Of a DNA stretch of 64,000 nucleotides, positions 1,495-63,525 are shown in pieces. How positions within the stretch are numbered: the stretch's first letter is position 1; each line of letters opens with the position of its first letter. The translations under genes and the position numbers were made by a program. This DNA is from Morinoia aosen (taxonomy: Eukaryota; Arthropoda; Malacostraca; Amphipoda; Talitridae): positions 4,967,934-5,031,933 of the forward strand of contig CM059574.1 of the NCBI GenBank assembly GCA_030386875.1, given 5' to 3'. The notes beneath the pieces are model-generated. The model saw only the letters and a list, made by a program, of their open reading frames with translations. It searched no databases and was not told the DNA's origin.

Positions 1495-4016
1495 ACCTAA
1501 AAGCCTCAGCGGGAATATGGTCAAAGGAAAAATGACTATTTCTCCAGACAGTGTGTCGCGTAACTCCTGTGGTGATCACAGCAGAGACGCGGCAAGGACT
1601 CGGAGTAAGGTGGATGTGAACACGAAGGGAAGAACTAAGGATGCAAACCTAAGTCTGATGTTTGTGCGGCTAGTAATTCTTACTAGGAAGTAAATTAGCA
1701 TCTTAGCCTATAGATAAGTTTACTCTAATGCGAATTTGGCATTTTTGTTTCGTAGAAAATATCGCATAGGGGAAAATAACTACGGTCAACGTGTTAAGTA
1801 CAATTAGTTCTCTTAAATATCTTACGAAAATGAAAAATATTGACAATTAGTTTTATGCAATAGTTATACTCATCAAAATCTAACAATGTCACTAAAATAA
1901 AATTGCTGTAGACATTTATTTGCACAATCTAAAGTACACAATCGAGAAAACGAAATAAAAGTAATTCTAAATAAAAACAACAGGCTTTTGGCTCCAATTC
2001 TGACAACATCATCTGAAAATTAATCAGTTGCGAAAATAATGTTCCGACGAAGTTCTAATCTATTTTAAGCGATCTACGTTTTATATGGCAAATATTGAGA
2101 TAAATATTTCTGCTATCACGTGCGCAACATTGTGAAAGACTGACTTTAAGCAAAATTTAGTTTTGGCTAGCAATGTTATGATAAAATAGACTGTTCTACG
2201 TTTGTGCACGTATACGAAAATATTTGATTGGGCTGATGACACTTATGCTGCTTTATGTTTCTGTAGTCACCCAAATAAGGCATCAAGTATAACACTTTTC
2301 GCGGATGTTTGTGAAGGAACTTAGACGAGCACCGCAGAATTTCAGCATGTGGGCAGCTTTGTGTTGCAATAAAAGAACGCACAATGTAACGTTTTAATGG
2401 TTCCTTCTGATGCACTATACCTTAAACTCACGTTGAATAATAATGCTAAGTGTTTCAAACATGGCTGGCCAAAATGAAAATCAGTGAAATTCCATTACTG
2501 AAATAGCTGATATTATTCTACAATGGGCATGCCTTCCGCCAAAAGCAATGTGGTTTATTTGTGCTTAAATTCTCCAGAATTCTTATTTATTTCTTGCTCA
2601 AAAATCGTATTTTCTAAATGGATTTAAATTAAAACCTAAAACATAAATTTGGATTACTTCCGAGTTTATTTTCGACCTTGTCACATGGCACAACGAAACA
2701 TATCAGTGCGGTAATCGTGGCATTATTTTGCATCTTACGCACCTTCAATCAATAGGCTTCATCTATGTGGTAAATAAAGCCCTACAACGCATAATCAGTT
2801 AGGCTCTGCCCCGCATTTCGTTCAGCGAAGAAGGCACAAAGTTCACGCAGTCCCGCTGCAGGTGCAACGAAGCGCGTCTCAGAAGAACCGTTTTTCACCG
2901 CAGCTCATCAATGATGCATGCGTGGAGTAAAATGTTGCGATTTACGGTCGCATTATTTTAAAGTCATCCATCAACTAAAAGCTTTTTGTGAGATCAAGGT
3001 TGGGGAAAAATTTCACAAAAAAATAGAAATTAAAGTAGACAGCACAATCAATCTTAGGGCCTCATGCGTTTGGTGCGTTCAAGTTAGTCGTGGTGCTGCT
3101 CCAAAGTTCTGCCTTCTCAGGGAAAGGGGAAGGAGCATAGGTCTATCTGCAGTGTCTGCTTTGCAGTATTTAGTGCTCATACCCTCTTATCTATTTTTTC
3201 TTTGTCGCTTCTTTTTTATTCCTACCGTAGTGTTTCTATGCTCAGAGTTTTCTTCGTTGGTCATACCTTTTACGCGTGTAGATTTTTTTTCCTTTGGTCT
3301 GCACTTTATGGTCCCTTCTCTTCACTTTTTAAGATCTCGTTTTATGAGGCTGGGAGTCTTAAGCCAACTTTCTGTAATAATAATAGTAATCGTTGTCATT
3401 TTAAAATTACAAGATCATGTCACAATTTTTTTCAGTGAAATAAACCGAGATCTAACTTACCTTACCTATCCTATTCTAACTAAACTCAACTTACCCTGAA
3501 TTTATCTTCCGTGCTTTAGCATTAAACAAACGTCCAAAAGTTGTTTATTTTCAATTTAAGCACGTGCCCAATTGGAAAAGTGGGCAGGGCGTGCACGTGA
3601 GTCGTAGTCCTTACACTGGAAATTTCGACGCTGAGTAATGTTTAAATGGCATTTGAGAAAATGAGTAATAATTCTAAAGTTCTACAGAAAAATGAAGCTG
3701 ACGCTATTTTCTATTAGGACAGATCAATTATTTAGCAAAATTATGTAGTCCTTTTATGAAAATTGCAAGAGGCATATCAGTGAATTCATGAATAGAAATG
3801 CAATTTTAAACTGCATAGTCCAAAGCAACAACGATACTTTGAAATTGCGTAATAAATGGAAAAGAGCGAGCAAAGCAGTGATGTGCTGTTTAAATAAAAG
3901 CCACAAATTTTTCTGGTTAGTCTCGGTTCATCGGCTGAAAAATGTGTTCGTGTACAGCAGATCAAATGGTGCGAGCTGCTCTGTCATATGCTGACCACAC
4001 CCTAATGCAGTGCTGA
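1495..4016. other. AT-rich DNA, no gene recognised
   Basis: AT-rich, no transposase, RT or RNA motif seen. The 193-codon frame at 2918-3499 is T-rich and looks fortuitous. Its last 60 bases (about 3440-3500) are a run of degenerate CCTTA/CTTAA pentamers resembling the telomere-like tracts near 45 and 47 kb. Confidence 0.5.
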
Positions 4017-4548
4017 GCTGCCTGACTGCTGAGTGAGTGCAGCTGTACCGCCTGGCTGCTGAGTGGGTGCAGCTGTGCCGCCTGGCTGCTGAGTGAGTGC
4101 AGCTGTGCCACCTGGCTGCTGAGTGAGTGCAGCTGTGCCACCTGGCTGCTGAGTGAGTGCAGCTGTGCCGCCTGGCTGCTGAGTGAGTGCAGCTGTGCCG
4201 CCTGGCTGCTGAGTGAGTGCAGCTGTGCCGCCTGGCTGCTGAGTGAGTGCAGCTGTGCCGCCTGGCTGCTGAGTGAGTGCAGCTGTGCCACTGGCTGCTG
4301 AGTGAGTGCAGCTGTGCCACCTGGCTGCTGAGGGAGTGCAGCTATGCCGCCTGGCTGCTGAGTGAGTGCAGCTGTGCCACCTGGCTGCTGAGTGAGTGCA
4401 GCCGTGCCGCCTGGCTGCTGAGTGAGTGCAGCTGTGCCACCTGGCTGCTGAGAGAGTGCAGCTGTGCCACCTGACTGCTGAGTGAGTGCAGCCGTGCCGC
4501 CTGGCTGCTGAGTGAGTGCAGCTGTGCCACCTGGCTGCTGAGTGAGTG
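4017..4548. repeat. 30-bp minisatellite, about 18 copies
   Basis: Tandem copies of a 30-bp unit containing GCTGCTGAGTGAGTGCAGC, with single-base variants (for example TGCCG against TGCCA at the unit end). One unit near 4290 lacks a base, which shifts the reading frame. Because 30 is a multiple of 3, several frames on both strands stay open through the array (a GTAALTQQPG repeat on the minus strand, for instance). I take these as consequences of the period, not genes. Confidence 0.95.
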
Positions 4549-18755: not shown

Positions 18756-19298
18756 TTAAGGTACAAAAAAAAGTAAAAAAGTAAAAATGCAGTAAATAAC
18801 ACGAAACAACTGAGAACCCATGATGCTGAGAGGATATGAACTCAACTGGTTGTTAAGAAAAGGCTTACGTTTAAAAATGAAAAGCGATTCTAAAATTCTA
18901 AGATCTAAAACACTTGAAGCTACACGTTCTACTTTAAAATGACTAGAGTGAGGATTTATATTGCACGTTTCAGCATGATCGCGAACAGCGGAGTGAGATG
19001 GACGGTTCAATGGAACACCAGTATGGTTACTAACTCCAACATGCTCGGCCACTCTAGCTCCGAGAGTACGTGTGGTCATGCTAAAGTACTCAGATGCACA
19101 TCGTGTACAACTGTATGAATACACTAGTGAGGCCTGTATGGTAGAAGGAAGTTTGTCTTTATAATTGAAAAAAGAACCAATTGTAAATTTGTTTCTTAAT
19201 ATGATATGAAATTTCATACCTGTAAAATGTCTAGAAAGCAGGGCAAGTAATTCAGCTTCGAGTTTTTCAGAATACGGTCCAAAATATGATAAACACAA
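18756..19298 (-). pseudogene. Penelope-type GIY-YIG endonuclease domain (locus 2)
   Basis: A 180-codon minus frame carries FNYKDKLPST, then SYSCTRCASEYFSMTTR, a following Leu-Gly-Ala-Arg-Val-Ala-Glu-His stretch, HSAVRDHAETC and LRILESLFIFK. These are the linker, Cys-x2-Cys finger, GIY-YIG core, catalytic Arg/His region and C-terminal motif of the Penelope endonuclease. The glycine expected after Glu-Tyr-Phe is serine here (EYFSM) but glycine in the neighbour copy (EYFGM), so this copy has probably lost activity. Confidence 0.85.
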
Positions 19299-20187: not shown

Positions 20188-21360
20188 CATCATTCGACCC
20201 ATATTTTACCGTCGTTACATAGACGATACTTTTTTGCTGTTCTGTCAGGAATCCCACGCAACATTATATTTTGACTTCATTAATAGTCGGCATAAAAATA
20301 TAAGATTCACTATGGAATGTGAAGAGCATAATAAATTACCTTTCCTGGATTGTTTAGTGACTAAACGAGAGAATAAATTTGAAGTGTCGGTGTACGAAAA
20401 AATACTTTCTCTGGTCTAGGAATGAGTTTCCATAGTTATTACACTTTCAATTTTGAACTGAATTGCATTAAAAATTTGCTTGTTCAGGCTTACAAAATTT
20501 GATCTAATTTCAGCGTCCATCATTTCGAATTCTCTTTTTAATAGAATCTTTCCGCCAAAATGGTTTTAGGCCTTCATTTATTGAACACCAAATTGGAGGG
20601 TTTTAAGCAAACAAGTTTCAACATGATAATGTAGAACCAAATTCGATCATTCAAGAACCAATCTCTCAACCAATTTATTTGTGTATACCATATTTTGGAC
20701 CGTATTCTGAAAAACTCAAAACTAAATTAGTTGCCCTGCTTTCTAGACATTTTACAGGCATAAAATTTCATATTATATTAAGAAACAAATTTACAATTGG
20801 TTCTTTTTTCAATTATAAAGCCAAACTTCCTTCTACCATGCAGGCCTCACTAGTGTATTCATATAGTTGTGCACGATGTGCATCTGAGTACTTTGGCATG
20901 ACCACACGTACTCTCGGAGCTAGAGTGGCCGAGCATGTTGGAGTTAGTTACTGTACTGGTGTTCCATTGACCCGTCCATCTCACTCCGCTGTTCGCGATC
21001 ATGCTGAAACGTGCAATATATCTCCTCACTCTAGTCATTTTAAAGTAGTACGTGCAGCTTCAAGTGGTTTAGATCTTAGAATTTTAGAATCGCTTTTCAT
21101 TTTTAAATGTAAGCCTTCTCTTAACAACCAGTTGAGTTAATATCCTCTTAGCATCATAGGTTCTTAGTTGTTTCGTGTTATTTACTGCATTTTTACTTTT
21201 TTACTTTATTTTTGTACCTCTAAATCCGTGTTTATGTTTGTTTTTACATTTACGTTCATTTTTTTTATTTCAGTGATATATGTCAGATTCTTTTAATGAG
21301 TTGATGATGGGTATTTGCCCGAAACGTTCTCAGTATAATGCAATTTTTATCAGTGATTTT
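20188..21360 (+). mobile_element. Penelope-like element, 5'-truncated, head-to-head with locus 2 (locus 3)
   Basis: Plus-strand copy beginning abruptly inside RT at TTCGACCCATATTTTACCG. It has motif C (FYRRYIDDTFLLF, about 20200-20240), the LPFLDCLVTK motif (open to a stop at 20417-20419), then a 153-codon frame at 20679-21140 holding the complete GIY-YIG region with the glycine intact (EYFGMTTRTLGARVAEH) and HSAVRDHAETC. The RT motif A and B region present in locus 2 is absent. The 3' tail at about 21285-21360 repeats that of locus 2. Within the coding part it is broken between 20420 and 20678. Confidence 0.85.
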
Positions 21361-24245: not shown

Positions 24246-25089
24246 TAATTTTAGTTAAATCAGAGAAGGCAACGAAGTTTTGTACAATTACCGAGTCAAA
24301 CCATTGGCAAAATCCTTACGAGCAAAAAGATAATCTAAACATATACCAACAGTTCTCGAGGTGAGGAATATTACGAAATTAATTTTCTGTGGCAAAAAGA
24401 TGCAGCATAAAGTATATTCGCGTTCACAACAGGAACTACATCGTCAATAAAATACTTTGAACTTGCTACCGTATACGGATTACCCCATGAGGGAGATTAA
24501 ATTAAAGTTTCAATCTTGCAATATTTTCAGTTTCAGTATACAGTTCAGTTTCGAATAATAAGTTGCAAAATTGGTCCACATGGTAAATTTAAGGAAAAGT
24601 TTGCTCTGGGAATCTTTATTTATCAAGCCATAAAAGAGGCCAGGAGCAGTCCTTGCACAAATCATGTTTTGTGACACAAATTTGTAACACAACAAATGTT
24701 TTAGACAAATTAGTCAGATACAAACGAGAGTTCTTAAGTTCACGTAGAAAGTTGTTTACGTTATCTTTATCACATGTAGCTAGCATCAATATTGGTTGAG
24801 TTATTGCTTTAAATGTTGTTTTATAGAAAATAGTTTTTACCTCACCAAGTAAAACTTATCACATTTTATAGTAACGCTTCTGCTTTAATCAGGACATGAA
24901 ACAGTTACGTTTTTATTTGCGGTAAAATTTCTTAGTAATGAGGTATGGTCACAGCTAATAATTGATGAAAATATTCTAGGCGGCCTAAATTTGAAATGGT
25001 ATTTATGTGTTGAAATTCTCGGATCTTTTCTATGAACAAAGACTTCAAGAGGCTTGATAGCTATGGCAGTAAAACGAATTTGTTAAAAG
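24246..25089. other. no gene recognised
   Basis: AT-rich sequence between the Tc1 fossil and the LTR element insertion site. No motif seen. Confidence 0.5.
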
Positions 25090-25094
25090 GTGAT
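25090..25094. repeat. target-site duplication (left), GTGAT
   Basis: GTGAT immediately precedes the left LTR and is repeated immediately after the right LTR at 31673-31677, marking a single integrase-made insertion. Confidence 0.9.
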
Positions 25095-26081
25095 TGTCGA
25101 TACCGTCGTGCGGTCGACGTGAGGGTTCGTGGAAAAGGGGTTGTCTTCTGTACAGCTACCTTTTCCGGGGCGCTAGCTTTTCTTCGCAGCTGCCCTTCCT
25201 GAGGTTCGTGTGGGTACCGCCCACGCCGTAATCAGTCCGCTAGGGCAACAGAAGTAAATTCTGTTAGTGCCGAACTACGGCGGTACCGTTGTGTGTGGGG
25301 GGGTGAGTGAGGTTAGTGTAGGTACCACCTGCGCCGTATTCAGTCCGCTAGGGCAACAGAAGTAAATTCTGTTATGTGCCGAACTACGGTGGTACCGCTA
25401 GGGAGAGGTGTGTGTGTGGGTACCACCTACGCCGTAATAAGTCCGCTAGGGCAACAGAAGCAAATTCTGTTAGTGCCGAACTACGGTGGTACCGTTAGGA
25501 AGACGAGCAACTGTCTGCGCCGTATGAGACCGCTAGGGCAACAGAAGTGAATTCTGTTAGTGCCGAACTGCGACAGCGTCTTCCTATCGACAAACTATGC
25601 GAAATAGTTCGTCCTTCCGAGGTGGCTCCTTAAACCCCTTATTAGGCGAGGTGTCGTATAAGACTAAAGCCTGTGTCAACAAGGAGAAAGGAAACTCTTT
25701 TGACCCCAGGGTATGACTTCTTTAATGATGAATCTCTTTGAAGTCCCTATCACATACACTGATATATTTTAACAAACACAGTGATTTATTTTCTATTGCA
25801 AAAATAGTGCGTACAGACGTGAGCTACTGCATAACAGGGTACAACACTCAAAATTGCATTTAAAATATTAGTCACATTTAGCTAGATAACACAAGAAACA
25901 TTGGAATATCGACATGTAATACAAATGATATTTAAGGGCTAACTAAAGTAAATGCACAAACGCAACATCAGCGCGGGGAAATAGATAAGTCGGCGTTCAG
26001 AGAGCTGGACACATGAAGAAAATACTTAAGATTAGGGGTAACTAACACAAAAAGGCTCGACAAACCCTGTGCGGCCTGACA
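25095..26081 (-). repeat. 3' LTR
   Basis: Begins TGTCGATACC and ends GGCCTGACA on the plus strand (TGTCAGGCC to TATCGACA in the element's sense). Contains a sense AATAAA (TTTATT at 25785-25790) and the four hairpin modules at 25213-25585. It is followed directly inward by the C-rich CACCCTCCCCCGGGCG in sense, where a polypurine tract would be expected. Confidence 0.96.
25213..25585. repeat. four tandem hairpin modules in 3' LTR
   Basis: Modules at 25213-25287, 25321-25396, 25419-25493 and 25497-25585 share a core, CCGCTAGGGCAACAGAAG, a few bases, then TTCTGTTA and GCCGAACT. The AACAGAA / TTCTGTT arms form an inner stem. The outer stems differ but stay paired: GGTACCGCC with GGCGGTACC in module 1, GGTACCACC with GGTGGTACC in modules 2 and 3, and AGGAAGACG with CGTCTTCCT plus CTGTC with GACAG in module 4. 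Confidence 0.9.
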
Positions 26082-26103
26082 CGCCCGGGGGAGGGTGTCT
26101 CTG

Positions 26104-29100
26104 CTACAATAGCCGAGACAGGAAATCTGCAAGGTGGTTGTCGACTCCCGGAAGGTGTTCGGCTCGGAACCTAAAAAGGCTGAAATACAAAGCCCAGCGT
26201 TTCAATCGGGGGTTCAACTTGTCTGCCTGTTGCAAATAAAGGAGCGGTCGATGGTCGGTTTGTAACACAAATTCTCGTCCATACAGGTAGACCTCAAACT
26301 TCTGTAGAGCCCAGTAGATGCTTAACGCTTCTTTTTCAATGGTAGAATAGTTTATTTCTGCTCCTCTCAGTCGACGTGAAGCATATGCTACCGGCGCGTA
26401 GTGACGGAAGTCTCGTTTGCTTGGCTGGAGAAGAGCTGCTCCAAGTCCAGTTTGGGAGGCATCTGTCCTCAGAATGAAAGGACATCTGGGGTCTGGTAAC
26501 TGTAAGACCGGTCTCTTGACTAACGCTATCTTCAAACTTTCGAACAGATCTTCTGTTGTATCGGTCCAAGGTATTTGTTCTGGGGAGTTCTTCTTTAGGA
26601 AATCATGGAGTTTAGATGTCAGTTGAGAGTAGTTAGGAATGTACTGTTGGTAGTACCCAACTGTACCGAGAAAACTTCGGAGCTCCCGTTTGGTTTTTGG
26701 GAGTGGAGCCGATTTCAAGGCTTCGACTCGGTTCTCCAGAGGCTGGATCTGATTACTGCTTAGTTGATGACCCAAATACTGGAGGCTGTCAAATCCGAAT
26801 TCGCATTTGGACGGCTTCGCCTTAAGGCCATGTCGAGAGAGAGCTTCGAACAGTTTAGCTAATGCTGTGCAATGATCTTCCCAGGTTGTCGAGGCGATTA
26901 AGATGTCGTCCATGTAGACCTCGGTGTCTTGCAGTCTTGCAGTGACTTGACGTATAAGGCGGGAAAAAGTGGCTGGAGCATTTGCTAGGCCGAAAGGCAG
27001 TACGTTGAATTCATAGAGGCCAGACCTAGTTTTGAAGGCGGTGTATTGGCGGGACTCAGGGTGTAGAGGTACTTGCCAATATCCACTGGTCAGATCCATT
27101 TTGCTGAATATTGTTTTGCCTGCTAAATTGGTGAAAATAGCAGTGGTGTCTGCTATCGGCTCGGCATCGAATACTGTCTGGCTGTTGAGGTGCCTGCAGT
27201 CGAGACAAAATCGGTGGGTTCCGTCTTTCTTCCGGACAGCAAGGAGCGGTGAATAATAAGGTGATGTGGATGGCATCACGATTCCCATCTTCATCCACTT
27301 CTCTAAACTTGACCGCAGTTCAGGCTCCAGCGCTAAGGGAAGTGGATACGAATGTTGAAGTCGAAAACTGGAAGGGTCCTTCAATTTTATTTCATGAACT
27401 GCCGTGCTGGTTCTTCCGGGAGTATCTGTGAAAAGATCGCGATATTCTTCAAGTAGTTCCTGGAGTTCTGAGCGTTGTGTTGTAGTCAACGTAGAGGAGA
27501 TGAGACAGTCTTCAATGGTTTCTCCGACGGGTGACGGTATCTCTGGTTCTTTCCGGTCGAGTTCTTCTTCTTCGCAGGTAGGTTCTAGGGCGAGGCCAAC
27601 CGCTGCAAATGCTTCCTCTACTCTCTCGTCGTCCTCGCGATCTTTCTCGCTTGGTGAGGCGGAACCTTGCTGCTCCCGGTCGTGGTACTGGCGAAGGAGG
27701 TTGATGTGATAGACTTTGTTGTTTCCATCCACGTCCAATGTATAGGTATAGGTTCCCAGGCGTGATTTCACTGTATAGGGACCTTTCCAAGTCATAAGTA
27801 GCTTCTTTCGAGAATCGGGCAGAAATACGAGGACTTTATCTCCTTGCTTTAGAGTTCGCATCTTGGTACGTCTGTTGAAGAACTTGGCGCTTTTCTCTTG
27901 GCTCCTGTTTAGATTCTCGCGAGCGATTTTACATGTTTCTTTCAATCGGTGCTTCATTTCCATCAAATACTGAGCAGTGCTCGTGTCGTCTTGCAAGCTC
28001 TCATCGGTCCAGCATTCCTTGAGCACGGTTAAAGGTCCACGGACGCGATGGCCGTAGATGAGTTCGAAAGGAGAATACCCGGTTGAGGCCTGAGGAGCGT
28101 CTCGATAAGCAAAAAGGAGTGAAGGCAGATACAGGTCCCAATCTCGCGGCTGTTCTACGGCTAACTTCCGCAACATGACTTTGAGCGTACCATTGAAGCG
28201 TTCGACTATGCCGTTCGATTGGGCATGGTATAATGGCGTCAATCGGTGCTGGATACCGACGAGTTTCAGGAAAGCTTCGAAGGTTGCAGCTGTGAACTGA
28301 GTGCCGTTGTCGCTTGTTAGCGTGTGAGGGAAACCAACTCTGCTGCAGATTTCGAGTAGCTCCTGGGCGACTGTTTCTGCATCTATATGTCTGAGCGGGG
28401 CTGCGTCTGCGTACCGAGTTGCTTGGTCCACCACGGTGAGAATGTATCGGTGGCCACGTGCCGAAGCTGGTTGTAATGGGCCTACCAAATCAACACTGAG
28501 CGCGGAGAATGGAGTGGTGATCGGTGGGGTTGAGATAGGTGCCTTTCTTGGTCGAGATGGAGCGTGCGTCTGGCAGGTATGGCAGGAGTGACAGTATTGG
28601 ACCACATCTTTTGCTAGGGACGGCCAATAAAAATCGCGTTCTAGTCGAGCCTGAGTCTTCTTTTGGGAATAATGGCCAGCAAGTGGATTGTCATGAGCCA
28701 TTTCCAAGATTTGTGGGCGCACGCTTGCAGGTGCTACAAGTTGATGAGTTTCCTGACCGTCTCGTAACGTTTTCCGATGGAGAATGCCGTCATGGAGTTC
28801 AAAGGTAATGACTCTGCCATCCTTGTGTGTTTCTTCTTTGCCAGTATCAACTTTCTTAAATAAAAGCTGCAATGTTTTGCACTCCCGCTGTAATTTCTTG
28901 AAGTCTTCTTTGTTGTGTTGCAATATATCGACAGTGCTTGGTGCGGCAGTGGGATCTTCGATCGCTTTTGCTGCTGCCCTTGTGACAACGTGAGAGACTT
29001 CTGCAGCAACTGGTTGCTCTTCATAGTCGGTCATCTGTTCTTCGAAGGAGGTGGTTCCGGGAACTCGGCCGAGAATGACATCGTGGGAGAGCTCTTCCAT

Positions 29101-30588
29101 GGCTACGGCTGTCACCTCTCCGTGGTAATAGGGGCACACGAGAGAGACCCGGGCCAGAGGCGCTTCGAAAGAGTGATTGTTGGCCAGCCGTACGGTTATT
29201 TCCTTCTTCAAAATGGCGTCAGCTGGGACGAGAGCCTTCTTGACGAAGACCGCCGTTGCTCCTCCATCGAGTAGTACTTGAACGGGTTGTTGGTTCACGG
29301 TGCCAGAGCATGTTTTCAGCTGTCCCAATTCGATCAGCTTGTTCGAGGCGATGTGATTGCATGCGACTGGGGGAATATCGTCGTATTCATCTGCTTCTTC
29401 ATGCGTTGCTAGATTGTTTACTCGAGCGGTAGTACTGGAGATAAGTGGGCTTGCATGGGCTGCTCCATTACTGGGACCATCACCTTGCCTCCTCTGTAAT
29501 TGGCGGCACTCGTCACTGGAATGCGATTGGTTGGGACCATGAAAAGTACAGTAAAATCCATTGTAAGGTCCTCGTTGTTCGCGCTGCGGAGTGTTGACCG
29601 ATCCTGAGCGGGTGGGACCACCACGTGTGTTAGAAGTTCTTGGCGGCGTTCCTCGAGAGTTGTTGCTGGAGTTGGGTGTTCTTGCTGGAGTGCTCGGGGC
29701 TCGGACAGGGAATGTCGCGCGTCGCTCTGGTGCTCCTGATGCTTTGAGTGCTGGAGGGCCCGCATCCGTCGATGATGTCAGTGTGCGACCCTTACAAAGC
29801 TGATGGAGCGATGTATGAGGTCTTGCTTGTAAGAAGCTATCACCTTGCTCTCCTAGGCTTGCGACTGTGTTACCACCCCTGTCACGCAACTGAGTAGCGA
29901 GGAAGGGCGGCAAGCTTGAATAAGCTCGGTCAACAATTAGAAAGTCACGAAGAGTCTTGTAGTTGGCTTCGATGTTGCATCCTTTTAACCAAGCGTCAAA
30001 GGATTGTTCGAGTCGCCGTAGGTAACGTGACATATTGTCGCCTTCTTCTGGCTTCAATTCGTAGTAGTTGGCACGTAGTTTTGCCGGAGTAACTTTATGA
30101 GCATCTAGTAGGAGCAATTTAATTTCCGGAAGCTTGAAGCGATCTGCTGCGGGCAGGGTATCGATGAGTCGACGTTCCTTCGGTGTGATCAAATTATGGA
30201 GCATGACAACAGCATCGACTTCAGTAAATCCCATCGCTGTGGTGTGAGTGCAGAAGCGTTGCAAGAATTCGTCCATCCTTTCTTTCGTGGGATCGAATGA
30301 GGCCGGTGGAGGTATCTTCACTCTAGCATTTTGGGGAGCGATTCGAGCATCGAGTTGTCGGAGTCTGAGCTCGTGGTCTCGTTGTGCTGCTTCTCGTTCC
30401 GCTGCTCGTTCTGCGGCTTCTCGTTCCGCTGCTCGTTCTGCGGCTTCTCGTTCCGCTGCTCGTTCTGCGGCTTCTTCCAAATGCCTCAGGCGGCTGGTAA
30501 ATTCTTCCCGGTACTCCGCATCGGTGGGAGTGAGGCCGAGGGCTTCGACGTATTCTCGAGCTTGAGCGACGAGATTCATCTTGTTCAA
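26104..30588 (-). CDS. gag-pol: Gag-Pol polyprotein: gag, protease, integrase, reverse transcriptase, RNase H
   Basis: One 1494-residue frame, ATG 97 nt inside the 5' LTR. Residues 38-70 are a charged coiled coil built from ERAAEREAA repeats. About 92-255 is gag capsid-like. C347-x2-H-x5-H-x4-C361 replaces the usual CCHC knuckle. The protease core is LLDGGATAVFV (catalytic Asp 441), with VILG at 504-507. Integrase has an HHCC finger (H632, H639, C669, C672), a DDE triad D700, D760, E796 (a D-35-E spacing) and a GPY/F module (WKGPYTVKSRLG, 934-945). RT follows: MDLTSGYWQ with D1165, and YMDD at 1225-1228. RNase H has D1376, E1418/E1420, D1445 and D1488. The polyprotein makes the particle, processes itself, copies RNA into DNA and integrates it. 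The integrase-before-RT order and the single frame without a gag-pol shift are its oddities. All catalytic residues I checked are present. Confidence 0.97.
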   Translation of the reverse strand: MNKMNLVAQAREYVEALGLTPTDAEYREEFTSRLRHLEEAAERAAEREAAERAAEREAAERAAEREAAQRDHELRLRQLDARIAPQNARVKIPPPASFDPTKERMDEFLQRFCTHTTAMGFTEVDAVVMLHNLITPKERRLIDTLPAADRFKLPEIKLLLLDAHKVTPAKLRANYYELKPEEGDNMSRYLRRLEQSFDAWLKGCNIEANYKTLRDFLIVDRAYSSLPPFLATQLRDRGGNTVASLGEQGDSFLQARPHTSLHQLCKGRTLTSSTDAGPPALKASGAPERRATFPVRAPSTPARTPNSSNNSRGTPPRTSNTRGGPTRSGSVNTPQREQRGPYNGFYCTFHGPNQSHSSDECRQLQRRQGDGPSNGAAHASPLISSTTARVNNLATHEEADEYDDIPPVACNHIASNKLIELGQLKTCSGTVNQQPVQVLLDGGATAVFVKKALVPADAILKKEITVRLANNHSFEAPLARVSLVCPYYHGEVTAVAMEELSHDVILGRVPGTTSFEEQMTDYEEQPVAAEVSHVVTRAAAKAIEDPTAAPSTVDILQHNKEDFKKLQRECKTLQLLFKKVDTGKEETHKDGRVITFELHDGILHRKTLRDGQETHQLVAPASVRPQILEMAHDNPLAGHYSQKKTQARLERDFYWPSLAKDVVQYCHSCHTCQTHAPSRPRKAPISTPPITTPFSALSVDLVGPLQPASARGHRYILTVVDQATRYADAAPLRHIDAETVAQELLEICSRVGFPHTLTSDNGTQFTAATFEAFLKLVGIQHRLTPLYHAQSNGIVERFNGTLKVMLRKLAVEQPRDWDLYLPSLLFAYRDAPQASTGYSPFELIYGHRVRGPLTVLKECWTDESLQDDTSTAQYLMEMKHRLKETCKIARENLNRSQEKSAKFFNRRTKMRTLKQGDKVLVFLPDSRKKLLMTWKGPYTVKSRLGTYTYTLDVDGNNKVYHINLLRQYHDREQQGSASPSEKDREDDERVEEAFAAVGLALEPTCEEEELDRKEPEIPSPVGETIEDCLISSTLTTTQRSELQELLEEYRDLFTDTPGRTSTAVHEIKLKDPSSFRLQHSYPLPLALEPELRSSLEKWMKMGIVMPSTSPYYSPLLAVRKKDGTHRFCLDCRHLNSQTVFDAEPIADTTAIFTNLAGKTIFSKMDLTSGYWQVPLHPESRQYTAFKTRSGLYEFNVLPFGLANAPATFSRLIRQVTARLQDTEVYMDDILIASTTWEDHCTALAKLFEALSRHGLKAKPSKCEFGFDSLQYLGHQLSSNQIQPLENRVEALKSAPLPKTKRELRSFLGTVGYYQQYIPNYSQLTSKLHDFLKKNSPEQIPWTDTTEDLFESLKIALVKRPVLQLPDPRCPFILRTDASQTGLGAALLQPSKRDFRHYAPVAYASRRLRGAEINYSTIEKEALSIYWALQKFEVYLYGREFVLQTDHRPLLYLQQADKLNPRLKRWALYFSLFRFRAEHLPGVDNHLADFLSRLL

Positions 30589-30662
30589 GTGATGCGGTGT
30601 CCGCGTAGTCGATTAGAACCCAGAAATCCCAGACAACGTTGGTAGTCGCGCAACGCTTCTGG

Positions 30663-30680
30663 GTCCCTGTTCGGGCGCCA
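30663..30680 (-). promoter_or_regulatory. primer-binding site for tRNA-Lys
   Basis: In sense, TGGCGCCCGAACAGGGAC, an uninterrupted 18-nt match to the 3' end of tRNA-Lys (the tRNA-Lys3 type primer site), 5 nt (TATTC) downstream of the 5' LTR. It primes minus-strand DNA synthesis and fixes the element's orientation independently of the coding frame. Confidence 0.93.
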
Positions 30681-30685
30681 GAATA

Positions 30686-31672
30686 TGTCGATACCGTCGT
30701 GCGGTCGACGTGAGGGTTCGTGGAAAAGGGGTTGTCTTCTGTACAGCTACCTTTTCCGGGGCGCTAGCTTTTCTTCGCAGCTGCCCTTCCTGAGGTTCGT
30801 GTGGGTACCGCCCACGCCGTAATCAGTCCGCTAGGGCAACAGAAGTAAATTCTGTTAGTGCCGAACTACGGCGGTACCGTTGTGTGTGGGGGGGTGAGTG
30901 AGGTTAGTGTAGGTACCACCTGCGCCGTATTCAGTCCGCTAGGGCAACAGAAGTAAATTCTGTTATGTGCCGAACTACGGTGGTACCGCTAGGGAGAGGT
31001 GTGTGTGTGGGTACCACCTACGCCGTAATAAGTCCGCTAGGGCAACAGAAGCAAATTCTGTTAGTGCCGAACTACGGTGGTACCGTTAGGAAGACGAGCA
31101 ACTGTCTGCGCCGTATGAGACCGCTAGGGCAACAGAAGTGAATTCTGTTAGTGCCGAACTGCGACAGCGTCTTCCTATCGACAAACTATGCGAAATAGTT
31201 CGTCCTTCCGAGGTGGCTCCTTAAACCCCTTATTAGGCGAGGTGTCGTATAAGACTAAAGCCTGTGTCAACAAGGAGAAAGGAAACTCTTTTGACCCCAG
31301 GGTATGACTTCTTTAATGATGAATCTCTTTGAAGTCCCTATCACATACACTGATATATTTTAACAAACACAGTGATTTATTTTCTATTGCAAAAATAGTG
31401 CGTACAGACGTGAGCTACTGCATAACAGGGTACAACACTCAAAATTGCATTTAAAATATTAGTCACATTTAGCTAGATAACACAAGAAACATTGGAATAT
31501 CGACATGTAATACAAATGATATTTAAGGGCTAACTAAAGTAAATGCACAAACGCAACATCAGCGCGGGGAAATAGATAAGTCGGCGTTCAGAGAGCTGGA
31601 CACATGAAGAAAATACTTAAGATTAGGGGTAACTAACACAAAAAGGCTCGACAAACCCTGTGCGGCCTGACA
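30686..31672 (-). repeat. 5' LTR
   Basis: Same 987 bp as 25095-26081 (offset 5591), with no difference noticed by eye. Drives transcription on the minus strand. The sense AATAAA lies about 295 nt from the LTR start (31376-31381), so R ends soon after, and the hairpin array at 30804-31176 should fall in U5, inside the genomic RNA leader. No clear TATA box; TTAAATATC near 31525 is a weak candidate. Confidence 0.96.
30804..31176. repeat. four tandem hairpin modules in 5' LTR (U5)
   Basis: Same modules as in the 3' LTR, at 30804-30878, 30912-30987, 31010-31084 and 31088-31176. In sense RNA they precede the primer site by about 125 to 500 nt, a position where retroelements keep packaging, dimerisation or translation-control structures. 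Confidence 0.9.
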
Positions 31673-31677
31673 GTGAT
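31673..31677. repeat. target-site duplication (right), GTGAT
   Basis: Pairs with 25090-25094. Confidence 0.9.
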
Positions 31678-36608: not shown

Positions 36609-39600
36609 AGTGCTCCACTGACTGCAAGTACTGCACCATTGACTGCAAGTACTGCACAACTGACTGCAAGTACTGCGCCACTGACTGCAAGTACTGCACC
36701 ACTGACTGCAAGTACTGCACCAGTGACTGCAAGTACTGCACCACTGACTGCAAGTACTGCACCACTGACTGCAAGTACTGCACCACTGATTGCATGTACT
36801 GCACCATTGACTGCAGGTACTGCACCACTGACTGCAAGTACTGCACCACTGACTGCAGGTACTGCACCACTGATTGCAAGTACTGCACCAGTGACTGCAG
36901 GTACTGCACCACTAATTGTAAGTACGGCACCATTGACTGCGAGTACTGCACCACTGACTGCAGGTACTGCACCACTGACTGCAAGTACTGCACCACTGAC
37001 TGCAAGTACTGCACCACTGACTGCAGGTGCTGCACCATTGACTGCGAGTACTGCACCATTGACTGCGAGTACTGCACCACTGACTGCAAGTACTGCACCA
37101 CTGACTGCGAGTACTGCACCATTGACTGCAAGTACTGCACCACTAATTGCAAGTACTGCACCACTGACTGCAGGTACTGCACCACTGACTGCAAGTGCTG
37201 CACCATTGACTGCAGGTACTGCACCACTGACTGCAAGTACTGCACCACTGACTGCAAGTATTGCACCACTGACTTCAAGTACTGCACCATTGACTGCGAG
37301 TACTGCACCATTGACTGCGAGTACTGCACCATTGACTGCGAGTACTGCACCATTGACTGCAAGTACTGCACCACTGACTGCAAGTACTGCACCAGTGACT
37401 GCAAGTACTGCACCACTGACTGCAGGTGCTGCACCATTGACTGCAAGTACTGCACCACTGACTGCAAGTACTGCACCACTGACTGCAGGTACTGTACCAA
37501 TGACTGCGAGTACTGCACCATTGACTGCGAGTACTGCACCAGTGACTGCAAGTACCGCACCAGTGACTGCAAGTACTGCACCATTGACTGCAAGTACAGC
37601 ACCAGAGACTGCGAGTACTGCACCATTGACTGCAAGTACTTCAACCTTGATTGCGAGTACTGCACCACTGATGGCGAGTACTGCACCACTGACTGCAAGT
37701 ACTGCACCACTGACTGCAAGTACTGCACCATTGACTGCGAGTACTGCACCATTGACTGCAAGTACTGCACCACTGACTGCAAGTACTGCACCATTGACTG
37801 CGAGTACTGCACCATTGACTGCGAGTACTGCACCACTGACTGCAAGTACTGCACCACTGACTGCAAGTACTGCACCACTGATGGCGAGTACTGCACCACT
37901 GACTGCAAGTACTGCACCACTGACTGCAAGTACTGCACCACTGATGGCGAGTACTGCACCACTGACTGCAAGTACTGCACCACTGACTGCAAGTACTGCA
38001 CCATTGACTGCGAGTACTGCACCATTGACTGCGAGTACTGCACCATTGACTGCGAGTACTGCACCATTGACTGCGAGTACTGCACCATTGACTGCGAGTA
38101 CTGCACCAGTGACTGCAAGTACCGCACCAGTGACTGCAAGTACTGCACCATTGACTGCAAGTACAGCACCAGAGACTGCGAGTACTGCACCATTGACTGC
38201 AAGTACTTCAACCTTGATTGCGAGTACTGCACCACTGATGGCGAGTACTGCACCACTGACTGCAAGTACTGCACCACTGACTGCAAGTACTGCACCATTG
38301 ACTGCGAGTACTGCACCATTGACTGCGAGTACTGCACCATTGACTGCGAGTACTGCACCACTGACTGCAAGTACTGCACCACTGACTGCAAGTACTGCAC
38401 CATTGACTGCGAGTACTGCACCATTGACTGCGAGTACTGCACCATTGACTGCGAGTACTGCACCACTGACTGCAAGTACTGCACCACTGACTGCAAGTAC
38501 TGCACCACTGACTGCAAGTACTGCACCACTGACTGCAAGTACTGCACCACTGACTGCAAGTACTGCACCACTGACTGCAAGTACTGCACCATTGACTGCG
38601 AGTACTGCACCATTGACTGCGAGTACTGCACCATTGACTGCGAGTACTGCACCATTGACTGCAAGTACTGCACCACTGACTGCAAGTACTGCACCACTGA
38701 TTGCAAGTACTGCACCACTGACTGCAAGTACTGCACCATTGACTGCAAGTACTGCAACATTGATTGCGAGTACTGCACCACTGACTGCGAGTACTGCACC
38801 ATTGACTGCAAGTACTGCAACATTGATTGCGAGTACTGCACCACTGACTGCGAGTACTACACCATTGACTGCGAGTACTGCACCAGTGACTGCAAGTACC
38901 GCACCAGTGACTGCAAGTACTGCACCATTGACTGCAAGTACAGCACCAGAGACTGCGAGTACTGCACCATTGACTGCAAGTACTTCAACCTTGATTGCGA
39001 GTACTGCACCACTGATGGCGAGTACTGCACCACTGACTGCAAGTACTGCACCACTGACTGCAAGTACTGCACCATTGACTGCGAGTACTGCACCATTGAC
39101 TGCGAGTACTGCACCATTGACTGCGAGTACTGCACCATTGACTGCGAGTACTGCACCACTGACTGCGAGTACTGCACCATTGACTGCGAGTACTGCACCA
39201 TTGACTGCGAGTACTGCACCATTGACTGCGAGTACTGCACCATTGACTGCGAGTACTGCACCATTGACTGCGAGTACTGCACCAGTGACTGCAAGTACAG
39301 CACCATTGACTGCAAGTACTGCACCATTGACTGCGAGTACTGCACCAGTGACTGCAAGTACTGCACCACTGACTGCAAGTACAGCACCATTGACTGCAAG
39401 TACTGCACCATTGACTGCGAGTACTGCACCATTGACTGCAAGTACTGCACCACTGACTGCGAGTACTGCACCACTGACTGCGAGTACTGCACCATTGACT
39501 GCGAGTACTGCACCAGTGACTGCAAGTACCGCACCAGTGACTGCTGCAAGTACTGCACCATTGACTGCGAGTACTGCACCAGTGACTGCAAGTACCGCAC

Positions 39601-41379
39601 CAGTGACTGCAAGTACTGCACCATTGACTGCGAGTACTGCACCACTGACTGCAAGTACTGCACCACTGACTGCAAGTACTGCACCATTGACTGCGAGTAC
39701 TGCACCATTGACTGCGAGTACTGCACCATTGACTGCAAGTACTGCACCACTGACTGCGAGTACTGCACCATTGACTGCGAGTACTGCACCATTGACTGCG
39801 AGTACTGCACCACTGACTGCGAGTACTGCACCATTGACTGCGAGTACTGCACCAGTGACTGCAAGTACCGCACCAGTGACTGCTGCAAGTACTGCACCAT
39901 TGACTGCGAGTACTGCACCAGTGACTGCAAGTACCGCACCAGTGACTGCGAGTACTGCACCATTGACTGCGAGTACTGCACCATTGACTGCGAGTACTGC
40001 ACCATTGACTGCGAGTACTGCACCATTGACTGCGAGTACTGCACCATTGACTGCGAGTACTGCACCATTGACTGGGAGTACTGCACCATTGACTGGGAGT
40101 ACTGCACCATTGACTGCAAGTACTGCACCATTGACTGCGAGTACTGCACCATTGACTGCGAGTACTGCACCACTGACTGCGAGTACTGCACCATTGACTG
40201 CAAGTACTGCACCACTGACTGCGAGTACTGCACCACTGACTGCAAGTACTGCACCATTGACTGCGAGTACTGCACCACTGACTGCGAGTACTGCACCATT
40301 GACTGCGAGTACTGCACCATTGACTGCGAGTACTGCACCACTGACTGCAAGTACTGCACCATTGACTGCGAGTACTGCACCATTGACTGCGAGTACTGCA
40401 CCATTGACTGCAAGTACTGCACCAGTGACTGCAAGTACTGCACCATTGACTGCAAGTACAGCACCAGAGACTGCGAGTACTACACCATTGACTGCAAGTA
40501 CTTCAACCTTGATTGCGAGTACTGCACCACTGATGGCGAGTACTGCACCACTGACTGCGAGTACTGCACCATTGACTGCAAGTACTGCACCACTGACTGC
40601 GAGTACTGCACCATTGACTGCGAGTACTGCACCATTGACTGCAATTACTGCACCACTGACTGCAAGTACTGCACCATTGACTGCGAGTACTGCACCATTG
40701 ACTGCGAGTACTGCACCATTGACTGCAAGTACTGCACCACTGACTGCGAGTATTGCACCATTGACTTCGAGTACTGCACCATTGACTGCGAGTACTGCAC
40801 CACTGACTGCGAGTACTGCACCATTGACTGCGAGTACTGCACCAGTGACTGCAAGTACCGCACCAGTGACTGCAAGTACTGCACCATTGACTGCGAGTAC
40901 TGCACCAGTGACTGCAAGTACCGCACCAGTGACTGCAAGTACTGCACCATTGACTGCAAGTACAGCACCAGAGGCTGCGAGTACTGCACCATTGACTGCA
41001 AGTACTTCAACCTTGATTGCGAGTACTGCACCACTGATGGCGAGTACTGCACCACTGACTGCAAGTACTGCACCACTGACTGCAAGTACTGCACCATTGA
41101 CTGCGAGTACTGCACCATTGACTGCGAGTACTGCACCATTGACTGCAAGTACTGCACCACTGACTGCCAGTAACTGCACCACTGACTGCAAGTACTGCAC
41201 CATTGACTGCAAGTACTGCAACATTGATTGCGAGTACTGCACCACTGATTGCGAGTACTGCACCATTGACTGCAAGTACTGCAACATTGGCTGCAAGCAC
41301 TGTACCACTGATTGCGAGTACTGCACCATTGACTGCAAGTACTGCACCACTGACTGCCAGTAACTGCACCACTAACCAG
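36609..41379. repeat. 4.8-kb array of a 21-bp minisatellite, about 227 copies
   Basis: Tandem 21-bp unit, CCACTGACTGCAAGTACTGC plus A, with a few recurrent variants (ATT for ACT, GAG for AAG, GAT for GAC). Five of the six frames have no stop in the unit, so frames up to about 1600 codons appear on both strands (PLTASTA and YCTTDCK on plus; AVLAVSG, QYLQSVV and CSTCSQW on minus). Variants recur in blocks, giving higher-order repeats. Two 3-bp insertions (GACTGCTGCAAG at about 39539 and 39880) and two 22-bp units (CCAGTAACTG at about 41167 and 41357) break the period. I find no signal that any frame is used. Confidence 0.97.
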
Positions 41380-60178: not shown

Positions 60179-62734
60179 AGCTGAAAAATAAACAAAGAGC
60201 ACGCAAGGCACAATAACGAAGATATTTTCGCATTCAAAAGACGAATTCGGTACACAAATTTCTCTGTCTTCTAGGAAAATAATCGTTCTGCACTTCCCGT
60301 GATACTTACCCGTGATGCCTATTGTGGTGTACATACCTATGGCTACACGGTGTTTCTGCCTACTGGTCTGTTGTAAAATATTGTACACGTCTATTCCTTT
60401 ACCCTAGGTATAAGCTGCCCACAATTTATTGTATCAACTTTTGGCCTAGGTATAATCTACCTATTGCCTACCTAGCAGTCAACCTTCCGCCTCACAACCA
60501 ATTCTAGCAAACCTACTTACATTTCCCCACTATACGTCACCAACCATCAAGAAGGGACCTTATTTCGGGTTGGTTGGTAGACCTAATGTCTTCACTACTC
60601 CCGACCCGATTGAACGGACATCAAAGGACTCCAAAGACTCGCAGACTCTTCGGTTTTATTTCATGGCCCGTGACGCCGTAAACTGCACAACAAGGACATT
60701 TTCAGTTTCGGCAACAAAACGAGGAACAACCACATAATAGGGAAACTCCTAGTTCAAAAATATAGATGAGGAATAACTGATTAAAGTATGAAGAGCAACT
60801 AAATGATGCTAGAACTAATACATCTCAATGACAATGATCTATCACGCCAGTCTCGAGAGTCTGGTAGCTCACGTGTCGATTCTTGTTAGCAAGAATTCTA
60901 GTTCCGGGAAACAACAATACGGATAGTACTCCACGCTCAGAATCAACTCGTAAGGACTCGTGAACATATCCATGATAAATGTCAAAAGCCAAACACATAA
61001 CACAGTGATACAGCTATTGGAATATCTGGACAGAAAAATGCACGACTTTCTAACTGGGCAACACATTTTAAACTTTGTGTGGGGGCACACAGTATTGTAC
61101 AAAAATCCAATTTTATGAACATGCACCTGGAAGTTATTTCTTTAGCTTCCCGTATAATTTTCTAAACTGTTAAATATATATGCTGTGGTCAAGGGAGGAC
61201 AGTACATTCGCGCATACTGTGTTTAACGCAGGTTCTCACAAATGAAGTTCACATAAATGAAGCGCTGCTGTGGGCACGGTTTTACACCCTCAGTGGGACA
61301 AACTGACGCGCCTTAATAGATATACTCACAAGCAATGGGGAGCGGTATTCTCACGCCTCTATTTTCAGCCTACATAAATGAGGCTATCTCAATAAGTTCT
61401 TTACTCTACCTGTTGAAAGGGGGTCCTGAAAGGGTTAGGTCTCTGATGCAGAGGCAACACTAAAAAGAGAACAGCAAATTATCATTCACACTAAATTTCA
61501 CAGGCAAGCACGACGGCTTCTTCAGCCGTAGAATAATCAGAGCTTAAAGTTAATGTACATGAACACAGCAGATCAGCTATAACTATTTTAGCATCATCCT
61601 GGCTATCTCTCATGTCAAAAATTTAGATTGTTTAATTTAAATTATAGGTGAACTATCCCCCGGGCAAAACAAGTACCCAGTTGCTGATATCATCTTGAGT
61701 ACACAAATTCATATGGGCAGTAGTCACAAATTTCTGAACACATTCTCAGTCTAGTTTGAATGCTTTAGCTCTAGGCTTCCACCCTACTGACTTGCGCAGC
61801 TTGCTCAGCACAGCTCATGGGTGAGGGGCCGACACATTATTGACATTCAAAAATGTATTTTATTTTTCAGCAAAAAATAAAAAATCTGAGCTATGCACTG
61901 TCAATATATGAAGTTCTTAGTTTTAACTAGCTGTTTACATTTAATGAGGCGCCAGTTCAACAGTTAATCTTACTCCCAGCAAGTGTTGGCTGCAGCCATT
62001 TTGTGGTTACAGAAAAATTTAAAAAAAGCTACAACTTCTCATAAACTGCTGGCTACCTTAACTTACATAACTAAATTATCAAGTTCCCAGCATCACAATG
62101 CGGCATACTGGCTAGAGAAAGCACTAGAAATTCACGAAATCACAATGGCTAGTCTGACTCGATATAGGTAGTTCGCCGGCTGCCAGAAGCATCATTGAAT
62201 GCTCTAGGAACCGGCTGTTCACCACTATCTGGCACAGCGACAACACATATAAACGAGACTAAATTCGGGGTACGAATACTCCGAATAATATTTCTTACAC
62301 ACACAGTTACAATAATAACACGGAACGAGATAAACTTGGGGAGAGAACCTTTCAACTCAACGGCTACAGCCAGACTTACTTTTTTAGAGTACGGCGCGTC
62401 ACCCGATGCTGGTATTGGCGCCCTACAGCCAGACAAAGACGCTGCGCTGGGCTTGCGGACCAGCGCGAGAATCCGCGGCGATGTTGCCACAGATATTTAC
62501 AAAAATTCGCGTCTTGTAAGACGCGACAGACCTTTACATAGAGACATTGTTAAATCCCAATCCTGTTTCACGTCTTATGAATCAATTTATAATAAATACC
62601 GGATGTTGTTCGTTTTGTCTTTTTCCATCGGAACGTTACTCTCAGCTGAAGAGACGCACAGAAGGAGGTCTTGGGTGTACAGGTACAGGTATGAGAGGGA
62701 GCTCTGTGTACAGTGGAGGTTGTGTGGTATACAG
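60179..62734. other. no gene recognised
   Basis: Unassigned. The plus frame starting 62195 runs into the minisatellite that follows, which lengthens it artificially. Its non-repeat part (about 160 codons) has no motif I recognise and is overlapped by a minus frame (62149-62490). Confidence 0.4.
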
Positions 62735-63525
62735 TGTGTGTCATGCAGTATCTGTGTCATGCAGTGTCTGTGTCATGCAGTGTGTGTCATGCGGTGTGTG
62801 TCATGCAGTGTGTGTGTGTCATGTAGTGTGTGTGCCATGCAGTATGTGTGTAATGCAGTGTGTGTGTCATGCAGTGTGTGTGTGTGTCATGCAGTGTGTG
62901 TGTGTGTCATGCAGTGTGTGTGTTATGCAGTGTGTGTGTTATGCAGTGTGTGTGTCATGCAGTGTGTGGGTGTCATGCAGTGTGTGTGCCATGCAATGCG
63001 TGTGTGTCATGCAGTGTGTGTGTCATGCAGTGTGTGTGTGTCATGCAGTGTGTGTGTGTCATGCAGTGTGTGTGTGTCATGCAGTGTGTGTGTGTCATGT
63101 AGTGTGTGTGCCATGCAGTATGTGTGTAATGCAGTGTGTGTGTCATGCAGTGTGTGTGTCATGCAGTGTGTGTGTCATGCAGTGTGTGTGTGTCATGCAG
63201 TGTGTGTGTCATGGAGTAAGTGTGTGTCATGCAGTGTGTGTGTCATGCAGTGTGTGTGTCATGCAGTGTGTGTTTCATGCATTGTGTGTGTGTCATGCAG
63301 TGTGTGTGTCATGCAGTGTGTGTGTGTGTCATGTAGTGTGTGAGCCATGCAGTATGTGTGTAATGCAGTGTCTGTGTCATGGAGTGTGTGTGTCATGCAG
63401 TGTGTGTGTCATGCAGTGATGTGTGTGTGCAATGCAGTGTCTGTGTCATGCACTGTGGGTGTCATGCAGTGTGTGTGCGTCATGCAGTGTGTGTGTGTCA
63501 TGCAATGTGTGTGTGTCATGACGTG
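62735..63525. repeat. TGTGTGTGTCATGCAG minisatellite, 16-18-bp unit
   Basis: Tandem units alternating a (TG)n run of variable length with TCATGCAG, with TTATGCAG, CCATGCAG and TAATGCAG variants. The variable (TG)n gives a length-polymorphic array. Cys/Val-rich frames across it reflect only the unit. Confidence 0.95.

Follow-up and report, generated by a model that had tools for sequence, protein, structure and literature searches.

A recently transposed, integrase-first Ty3/gypsy-type retrotransposon with structured LTR units in a talitrid amphipod

The window, a 64,000-nt stretch of the Morinoia aosen genome, carries on its minus strand a complete LTR retrotransposon of 6578 bp (6.6 kb, positions 25095-31672), which extends beyond the originally noted interval 26104-30588. 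That interval is a single minus-strand frame, uninterrupted from end to end, with its first ATG at 30579. As expected of an LTR retrotransposon, it has paired LTRs that begin with TG and finish with CA (sense strand TGTC...GACA), a short target duplication and a primer binding site, which we take to be the complement of the 3′ end of tRNA-Lys(UUU). A first-pass annotation had called the LTRs identical-looking, and their alignment gave 0 mismatches over 987 bp. Both contain an AATAAA that may serve as polyadenylation signal. The features of the element, in window coordinates, are:

25090..25094, no strand: target-site duplication GTGAT, low-coordinate side, flanking the LTR on the outside
25095..26081, minus: 3′ LTR, 987 bp
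25208..25583, minus: four structured units of ~83 nt in the 3′ LTR (25208-25290, 25316-25399, 25414-25496, 25497-25583), from tandem repeat, alignment and folding
25785..25790, minus: AATAAA in the 3′ LTR, a candidate signal for polyadenylation that precedes the ~83-nt units in the sense direction
26082..26103, minus: 22-nt gap that follows the stop codon and precedes the 3′ LTR, rich in C when read in sense, at the place where a polypurine tract would normally lie
26104..30579, minus: single Gag-Pol open reading frame of 1491 aa, counted from its first ATG
26179..26568, minus: RNase H (Pfam)
26761..27237, minus: reverse transcriptase (RT) with YMDD (Pfam and motif)
27664..28731, minus: integrase with H2C2 finger, D,D-35-E core and GPY/F module (Pfam and motifs)
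29068..29304, minus: aspartic protease domain, matched weakly in Pfam (scores under the curated cut-off), whose active-site triplet D-G-G begins at residue 441
29266-29268, minus: codon 441 counted from the TTG frame start, first of the D-G-G triplet, read in 21 copies
29506..29550, minus: putative finger-like motif C-x2-H-x5-H-x4-C towards the Gag end (motif search)
30663..30680, minus: primer binding site TGGCGCCCGAACAGGGAC, 18 nt, five nt inside the 5′ LTR
30686..31672, minus: 5′ LTR, 987 bp, exact match to 25095-26081
30799..31174, minus: 5′ LTR counterparts of the four ~83-nt units, ahead of the primer binding site
31673..31677, no strand: target-site duplication GTGAT, high-coordinate side, flanking the LTR on the outside

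Within the frame, the Pfam domains follow each other as aspartic protease (residues 429-507), H2C2 (620-677), rve (693-787), RVT_1 (1118-1276) and RNase H (1341-1470), giving an overall order of Gag-protease-integrase-RT-RNase H in one open frame. Domain matches and motifs thus confirmed the order proposed earlier, as well as the motifs named with it: the catalytic residues D700-D760-E796 form the D,D-35-E core, GPY lies at 936 and the YMDD of the RT at 1225. For the HHCC finger, which had also been named, the Integrase_H2C2 match was strong (3.9e-20) and the strict spacing pattern tried for the zinc finger gave no match. Judged by Pfam and motifs, a Ty3-type RT/RNase H is combined with a GPY/F integrase, as in Ty3/gypsy elements. 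The order PR-IN-RT-RH is shared with Ty1/copia, whereas the Pfam families matched by RT, RNase H and integrase are those of Ty3-type elements; the RT of Ty1/copia has a Pfam model of its own.

Other repeats lie elsewhere in the window. Positions 36611-41371 are occupied by a 4.8-kb minisatellite with ~226 copies of a 21-bp unit, in which several frames are open on both strands, and further tandem arrays are found at 4012-4548 and 62721-63520, with periods of 30 bp and 16/34 bp. Two similar ORFs in opposite orientation (18756-19298, minus; 20679-21140, plus) gave no Pfam match at E 0.01; from their likeness by eye, we take them to resemble the GIY-YIG part of Penelope-like elements.

The host assembly (1.99 Gb, 29 contigs) was searched with a 1-kb stretch of the frame. 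The search returned 889 candidate places, 40 of which were scored, the window's own among them, and all 40 were 99-100% identical over the 1 kb. We then compared the window element with the first 20, by score, of the 39 other scored places, a sample biased towards young copies. A 5-bp target duplication was present in all 20 copies in which it could be tested, and the LTR pair differed by 0-2 mismatches in 19 of the 20 copies with both LTRs measured (the window is included in both counts); copy L026 had 15 mismatches between its LTRs, and the 5′ LTR of L011 was matched only partly. LTR-to-LTR spacing was equal within a few bases among the 20 fetched copies, and the 18 nt of the primer binding site were unchanged in all 21. 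The frame was open in 19 of the 21 copies and broken in two. Among 19 copies of the same length, mean pairwise divergence of the internal region was 0.56%, and the ratio of amino-acid-changing to silent variable positions, per site, was 0.42. No strong consensus was seen among the 20 insertion sites. The identity of the LTRs, the GTGAT duplication and the near-identical genome copies support the original view that the element is very young and recently active. In the same assembly, contigs C26, C28 and C29 hold five full-length COX1 copies of equal score, each with 8 internal TGA, a pattern that nuclear copies or a misassembly of the mitochondrial DNA would show. On contig C27 (~55-72 Mb), several COX1 matches are free of stops under the standard code, whereas the mitochondrial-type ones contain TGA; this suggests bacterial sequence joined into the contig.

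Gypsy elements with the integrase upstream of the RT are known as Gmr1-like (PMC3587641, PMC8220671, PMC6238403), and among the best 120 relatives listed for the RT/RNase H region, 105 were ordered IN-RT-RH, whether a protease was detected or not. A look at viral contigs confirmed no relative there. Three of them (P0001-P0003) are 71-74% identical to the window element over this region and have the same domain order. A quick RT/RNase H tree was built from 98 rows, with 97 of the 120 relatives kept and 23 near-identical oyster rows left out (P0095, P0096, P0099-P0118, P0120). In this tree the integrase-first rows fell together with the single exception of P0032, whose 2385 aa come from an over-long gene model. 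Bootstrapped RT/RNase H trees were then calculated from hand-picked subsets of 53 and 47 rows, window included and P0032 excluded, with an outgroup of RT-first proteins that are known by their domains and order alone and include no named Ty3 or Ty1 reference. The integrase-first rows formed one clade in both (100/100), with the window element in a lineage A, likewise supported by 100/100 in both, which comprised 46 rows besides the window in the quick tree.

Decapods, mantis shrimp, bivalves and urchins make up a lineage B, which was weakly one clade in the 47-row tree (90/59) and not on one side of a branch in the 53-row tree. The relatives from Penaeus, Oratosquilla and Scylla, recovered by a search with a Penaeus protein, share the integrase-first order with the window element and fall together with the bivalve and urchin rows in lineage B of the 47-row tree. 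For the integrase tree, 8 further rows were dropped (P0022, P0032, P0047, P0059, P0063, P0072, P0074, P0094). Here the RT-first rows lie on one side of a branch with support 94, in line with the kinship proposed from the RT; lineage A received 98 and lineage B 0, long branches meet in this tree, and the three groups (A, B, RT-first) require the minimum possible number of changes. Judged from these trees, the lineage of the window element is separate from the integrase-first elements that decapods, mantis shrimp, bivalves and urchins carry. Order and clade together support its membership in the Gmr1-like group, as first proposed, with trees that contain neither the cod nor a tunicate reference Gmr1.

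A mitochondrial-type COX1 from the assembly shows 98% identity to that of Platorchestia sp., a talitrid, and no more than 90% to the other 119 sequences listed, in keeping with a talitrid amphipod as host. That the host is an arthropod agrees with the first-pass annotation and is no surprise. Piednoel et al. (2013) reported four Gmr1-related elements in decapods, GyRex4, Gychoro2, GyMaja1 and GyLiva4, likewise from crustacean hosts, as the first in protostomes (PMC3587641). Gmr1 is also listed among the clades occurring in several phyla (PMC8556966) and in an annelid (PMC8220671), and with Gmr1 of the Atlantic cod and the tunicate elements the window element shares the integrase upstream of the RT in a Ty3-type pol. 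Given these earlier reports, the Gmr1-like arrangement is one already known from crustaceans, and the element adds a member to a known kind. What sets it apart is not so much its domain order as its protease, the missing polypurine tract and the units in its LTRs.

The active-site triplet of the protease is D-G-G in all 21 copies read and is followed by an ILG motif in the translation (D-V-I-L-G). It stands in place of the D-T/S-G triplet of clan AA retropepsins, the canonical motif (PMC2642776). In an alignment of 95 rows, the window and 94 of the 104 integrase-first rows with a detected protease, the triplet was DTG in 54, DSG in 30, DGG in 5 and DNG, DCG and DQG in one each, and three rows have no D at the site and start with M. 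Besides the window, D-G-G occurs in P0003, P0006, P0007 and P0015, all from the window's lineage in the quick tree. Near the 3′ LTR, the final 220 nt of the internal region contain no run of 9 or more purines; the LTR is touched by GGGCG only, and before GGGCG the sense strand reads CCCTCCCCC. The copies are so young that their agreement in D-G-G and in the missing tract says little about constraint. Both traits are atypical for an active element.

The element could be an ordinary Ty3/gypsy element whose integrase-first order came about by chimera or assembly error, in keeping with how uncommon this order is and with the over-long gene model behind the one integrase-first row that fell outside the clade. 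The 40 scored places on many contigs, the nearly equal LTR-to-LTR spacing of the 20 fetched copies and the identical order in 105 of the 120 listed relatives rule this out for practical purposes. An explanation in which the copies spread with the proteins of another element, their own protease being weak or dead, draws on the departure of D-G-G from the canonical motif (PMC2642776) in every copy read. We consider it improbable: 19 of 21 copies keep an open frame, amino-acid-changing variable positions are fewer per site than silent ones, and the same triplet recurs in four other members of the lineage. Its anatomy, copies, target duplications and clade are shown directly, and we are highly confident that this Ty3/gypsy-type LTR retrotransposon is autonomous, has transposed recently and belongs to the integrase-first (Gmr1-like) group; that confidence applies to its identity and not to the role of its LTR units.

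The number of ~83-nt units per LTR ranges from 3 to 5 between copies: L016 has three, L019 five and the other copies four, with three matched in the 5′ LTR of L011. Within L016 and within L019, the two LTRs are identical. L016 also carries, in both LTRs, a hybrid unit that combines units 1 and 2. A first alignment comprised 14 hand-picked variants, some with broken pairs having been left out, and 55 of its columns were invariant, almost all of them core positions. Two-sided changes were found at 6 of 22 pairs, in 18 cells (shuffled mean 5.1, with 0 of 500 shuffles as high); 14 of the 500 reached 6 two-sided pairs, and every one reached the observed count of pair types. We prefer a fuller recount, with 143 matches from 18 of 21 sources (L014, L022 and L024 out) and 33 distinct rows. 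In this alignment, 98.6% of cells were paired (shuffled 94.4), a value that dropped to 64.7% or less when partners were slid. Two-sided cells numbered 44 against a shuffled mean of 14.2, and the covariation score was 0.223 against 0.138, neither reached by any of 500 shuffles, although the alignment is fitted to a structure derived from these same sequences and related rows inflate covariation scores. Of the 500 shuffles, 114 attained six two-sided pairs and 422 the observed count of pair types.

Most two-sided changes set unit 1 apart from the rest, so that few independent events lie behind them. The nine-pair closing stem is whole in 28 of the 33 rows, with one pair broken in four and two pairs broken only in the L016 hybrid. 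The inner helices say little because they hardly vary, and where they do change, a pair is usually lost. Folded singly against shuffles, the window units gave z -2.3 to -3.4 in sense and -1.5 to -2.9 on the other strand; the presumed RNA leader gave z -3.6 (20 shuffles). No covariance model of Rfam 15 matched within the window at the gathering threshold. In the region 25000-26200, 4 matches up to E 5 were obtained, all of which scored far under the respective gathering score and lay outside the units. An HDV-like ribozyme was considered in view of GGGCAAC on the other strand; known ribozymes (HDV-like, twister) were rejected for lack of an Rfam match and of a P1 helix by eye. A tRNA-like cloverleaf was rejected likewise, as a three-armed minimum-energy fold occurs in unit 4 alone of the four window units.

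In sense direction the units follow the AATAAA, which suggests that they belong to U5 and hence to the RNA leader, and our guess, with moderate support, is that they function there as RNA, in packaging, dimerisation or translation. They could instead be enhancer repeats in the DNA, as tandem LTR repeats frequently are: protein-binding sites in which paired half-sites, and not an RNA fold, account for the stem symmetry. In retroviruses and in Tnt1, tandem repeats within U3 can serve transcription (PMC3601003); the varying unit number, the weakened stems in some units and the excess folding of single units on both strands fit this as well. At odds with it are stem arms more than 50 nt apart, a nearly invariant core combined with a closing stem altered on both sides, and the location in what seems to be U5 and not U3, so that we regard enhancer repeats as possible but on the unlikely side. 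Returning to RNA function, a bolder form of that reading would assign the units to a class of RNA element not yet described: folded domains of ~83 nt in tandem, 3-5 of them depending on the copy, in the leader of an integrase-first lineage, that replace or assist some usual function, for instance packaging, translation start or plus-strand priming, where the polypurine tract is missing. The 33-row recount slightly lowered our expectation of this bolder form, which we hold to be doubtful. A narrow literature search on structured tandem repeats in LTR leaders was made, and we make no claim that they are absent from print.

Taken as an autonomous element, the retrotransposon would be transcribed from its LTR and translated as one Gag-Pol protein that its own protease would cleave. 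Its RNA leader would probably include the 3-5 structured units, which are located after the AATAAA and before the end of the LTR. Reverse transcription would be primed by tRNA-Lys, and the element's own integrase would insert the product, leaving the 5-bp duplications. An amphipod thus harbours integrase-first elements that are still moving, or were until very recently, and the kind as a whole divides into two or more deep lineages. The D-G-G protease, the absent polypurine tract and the LTR units pose testable questions on how this element replicates.
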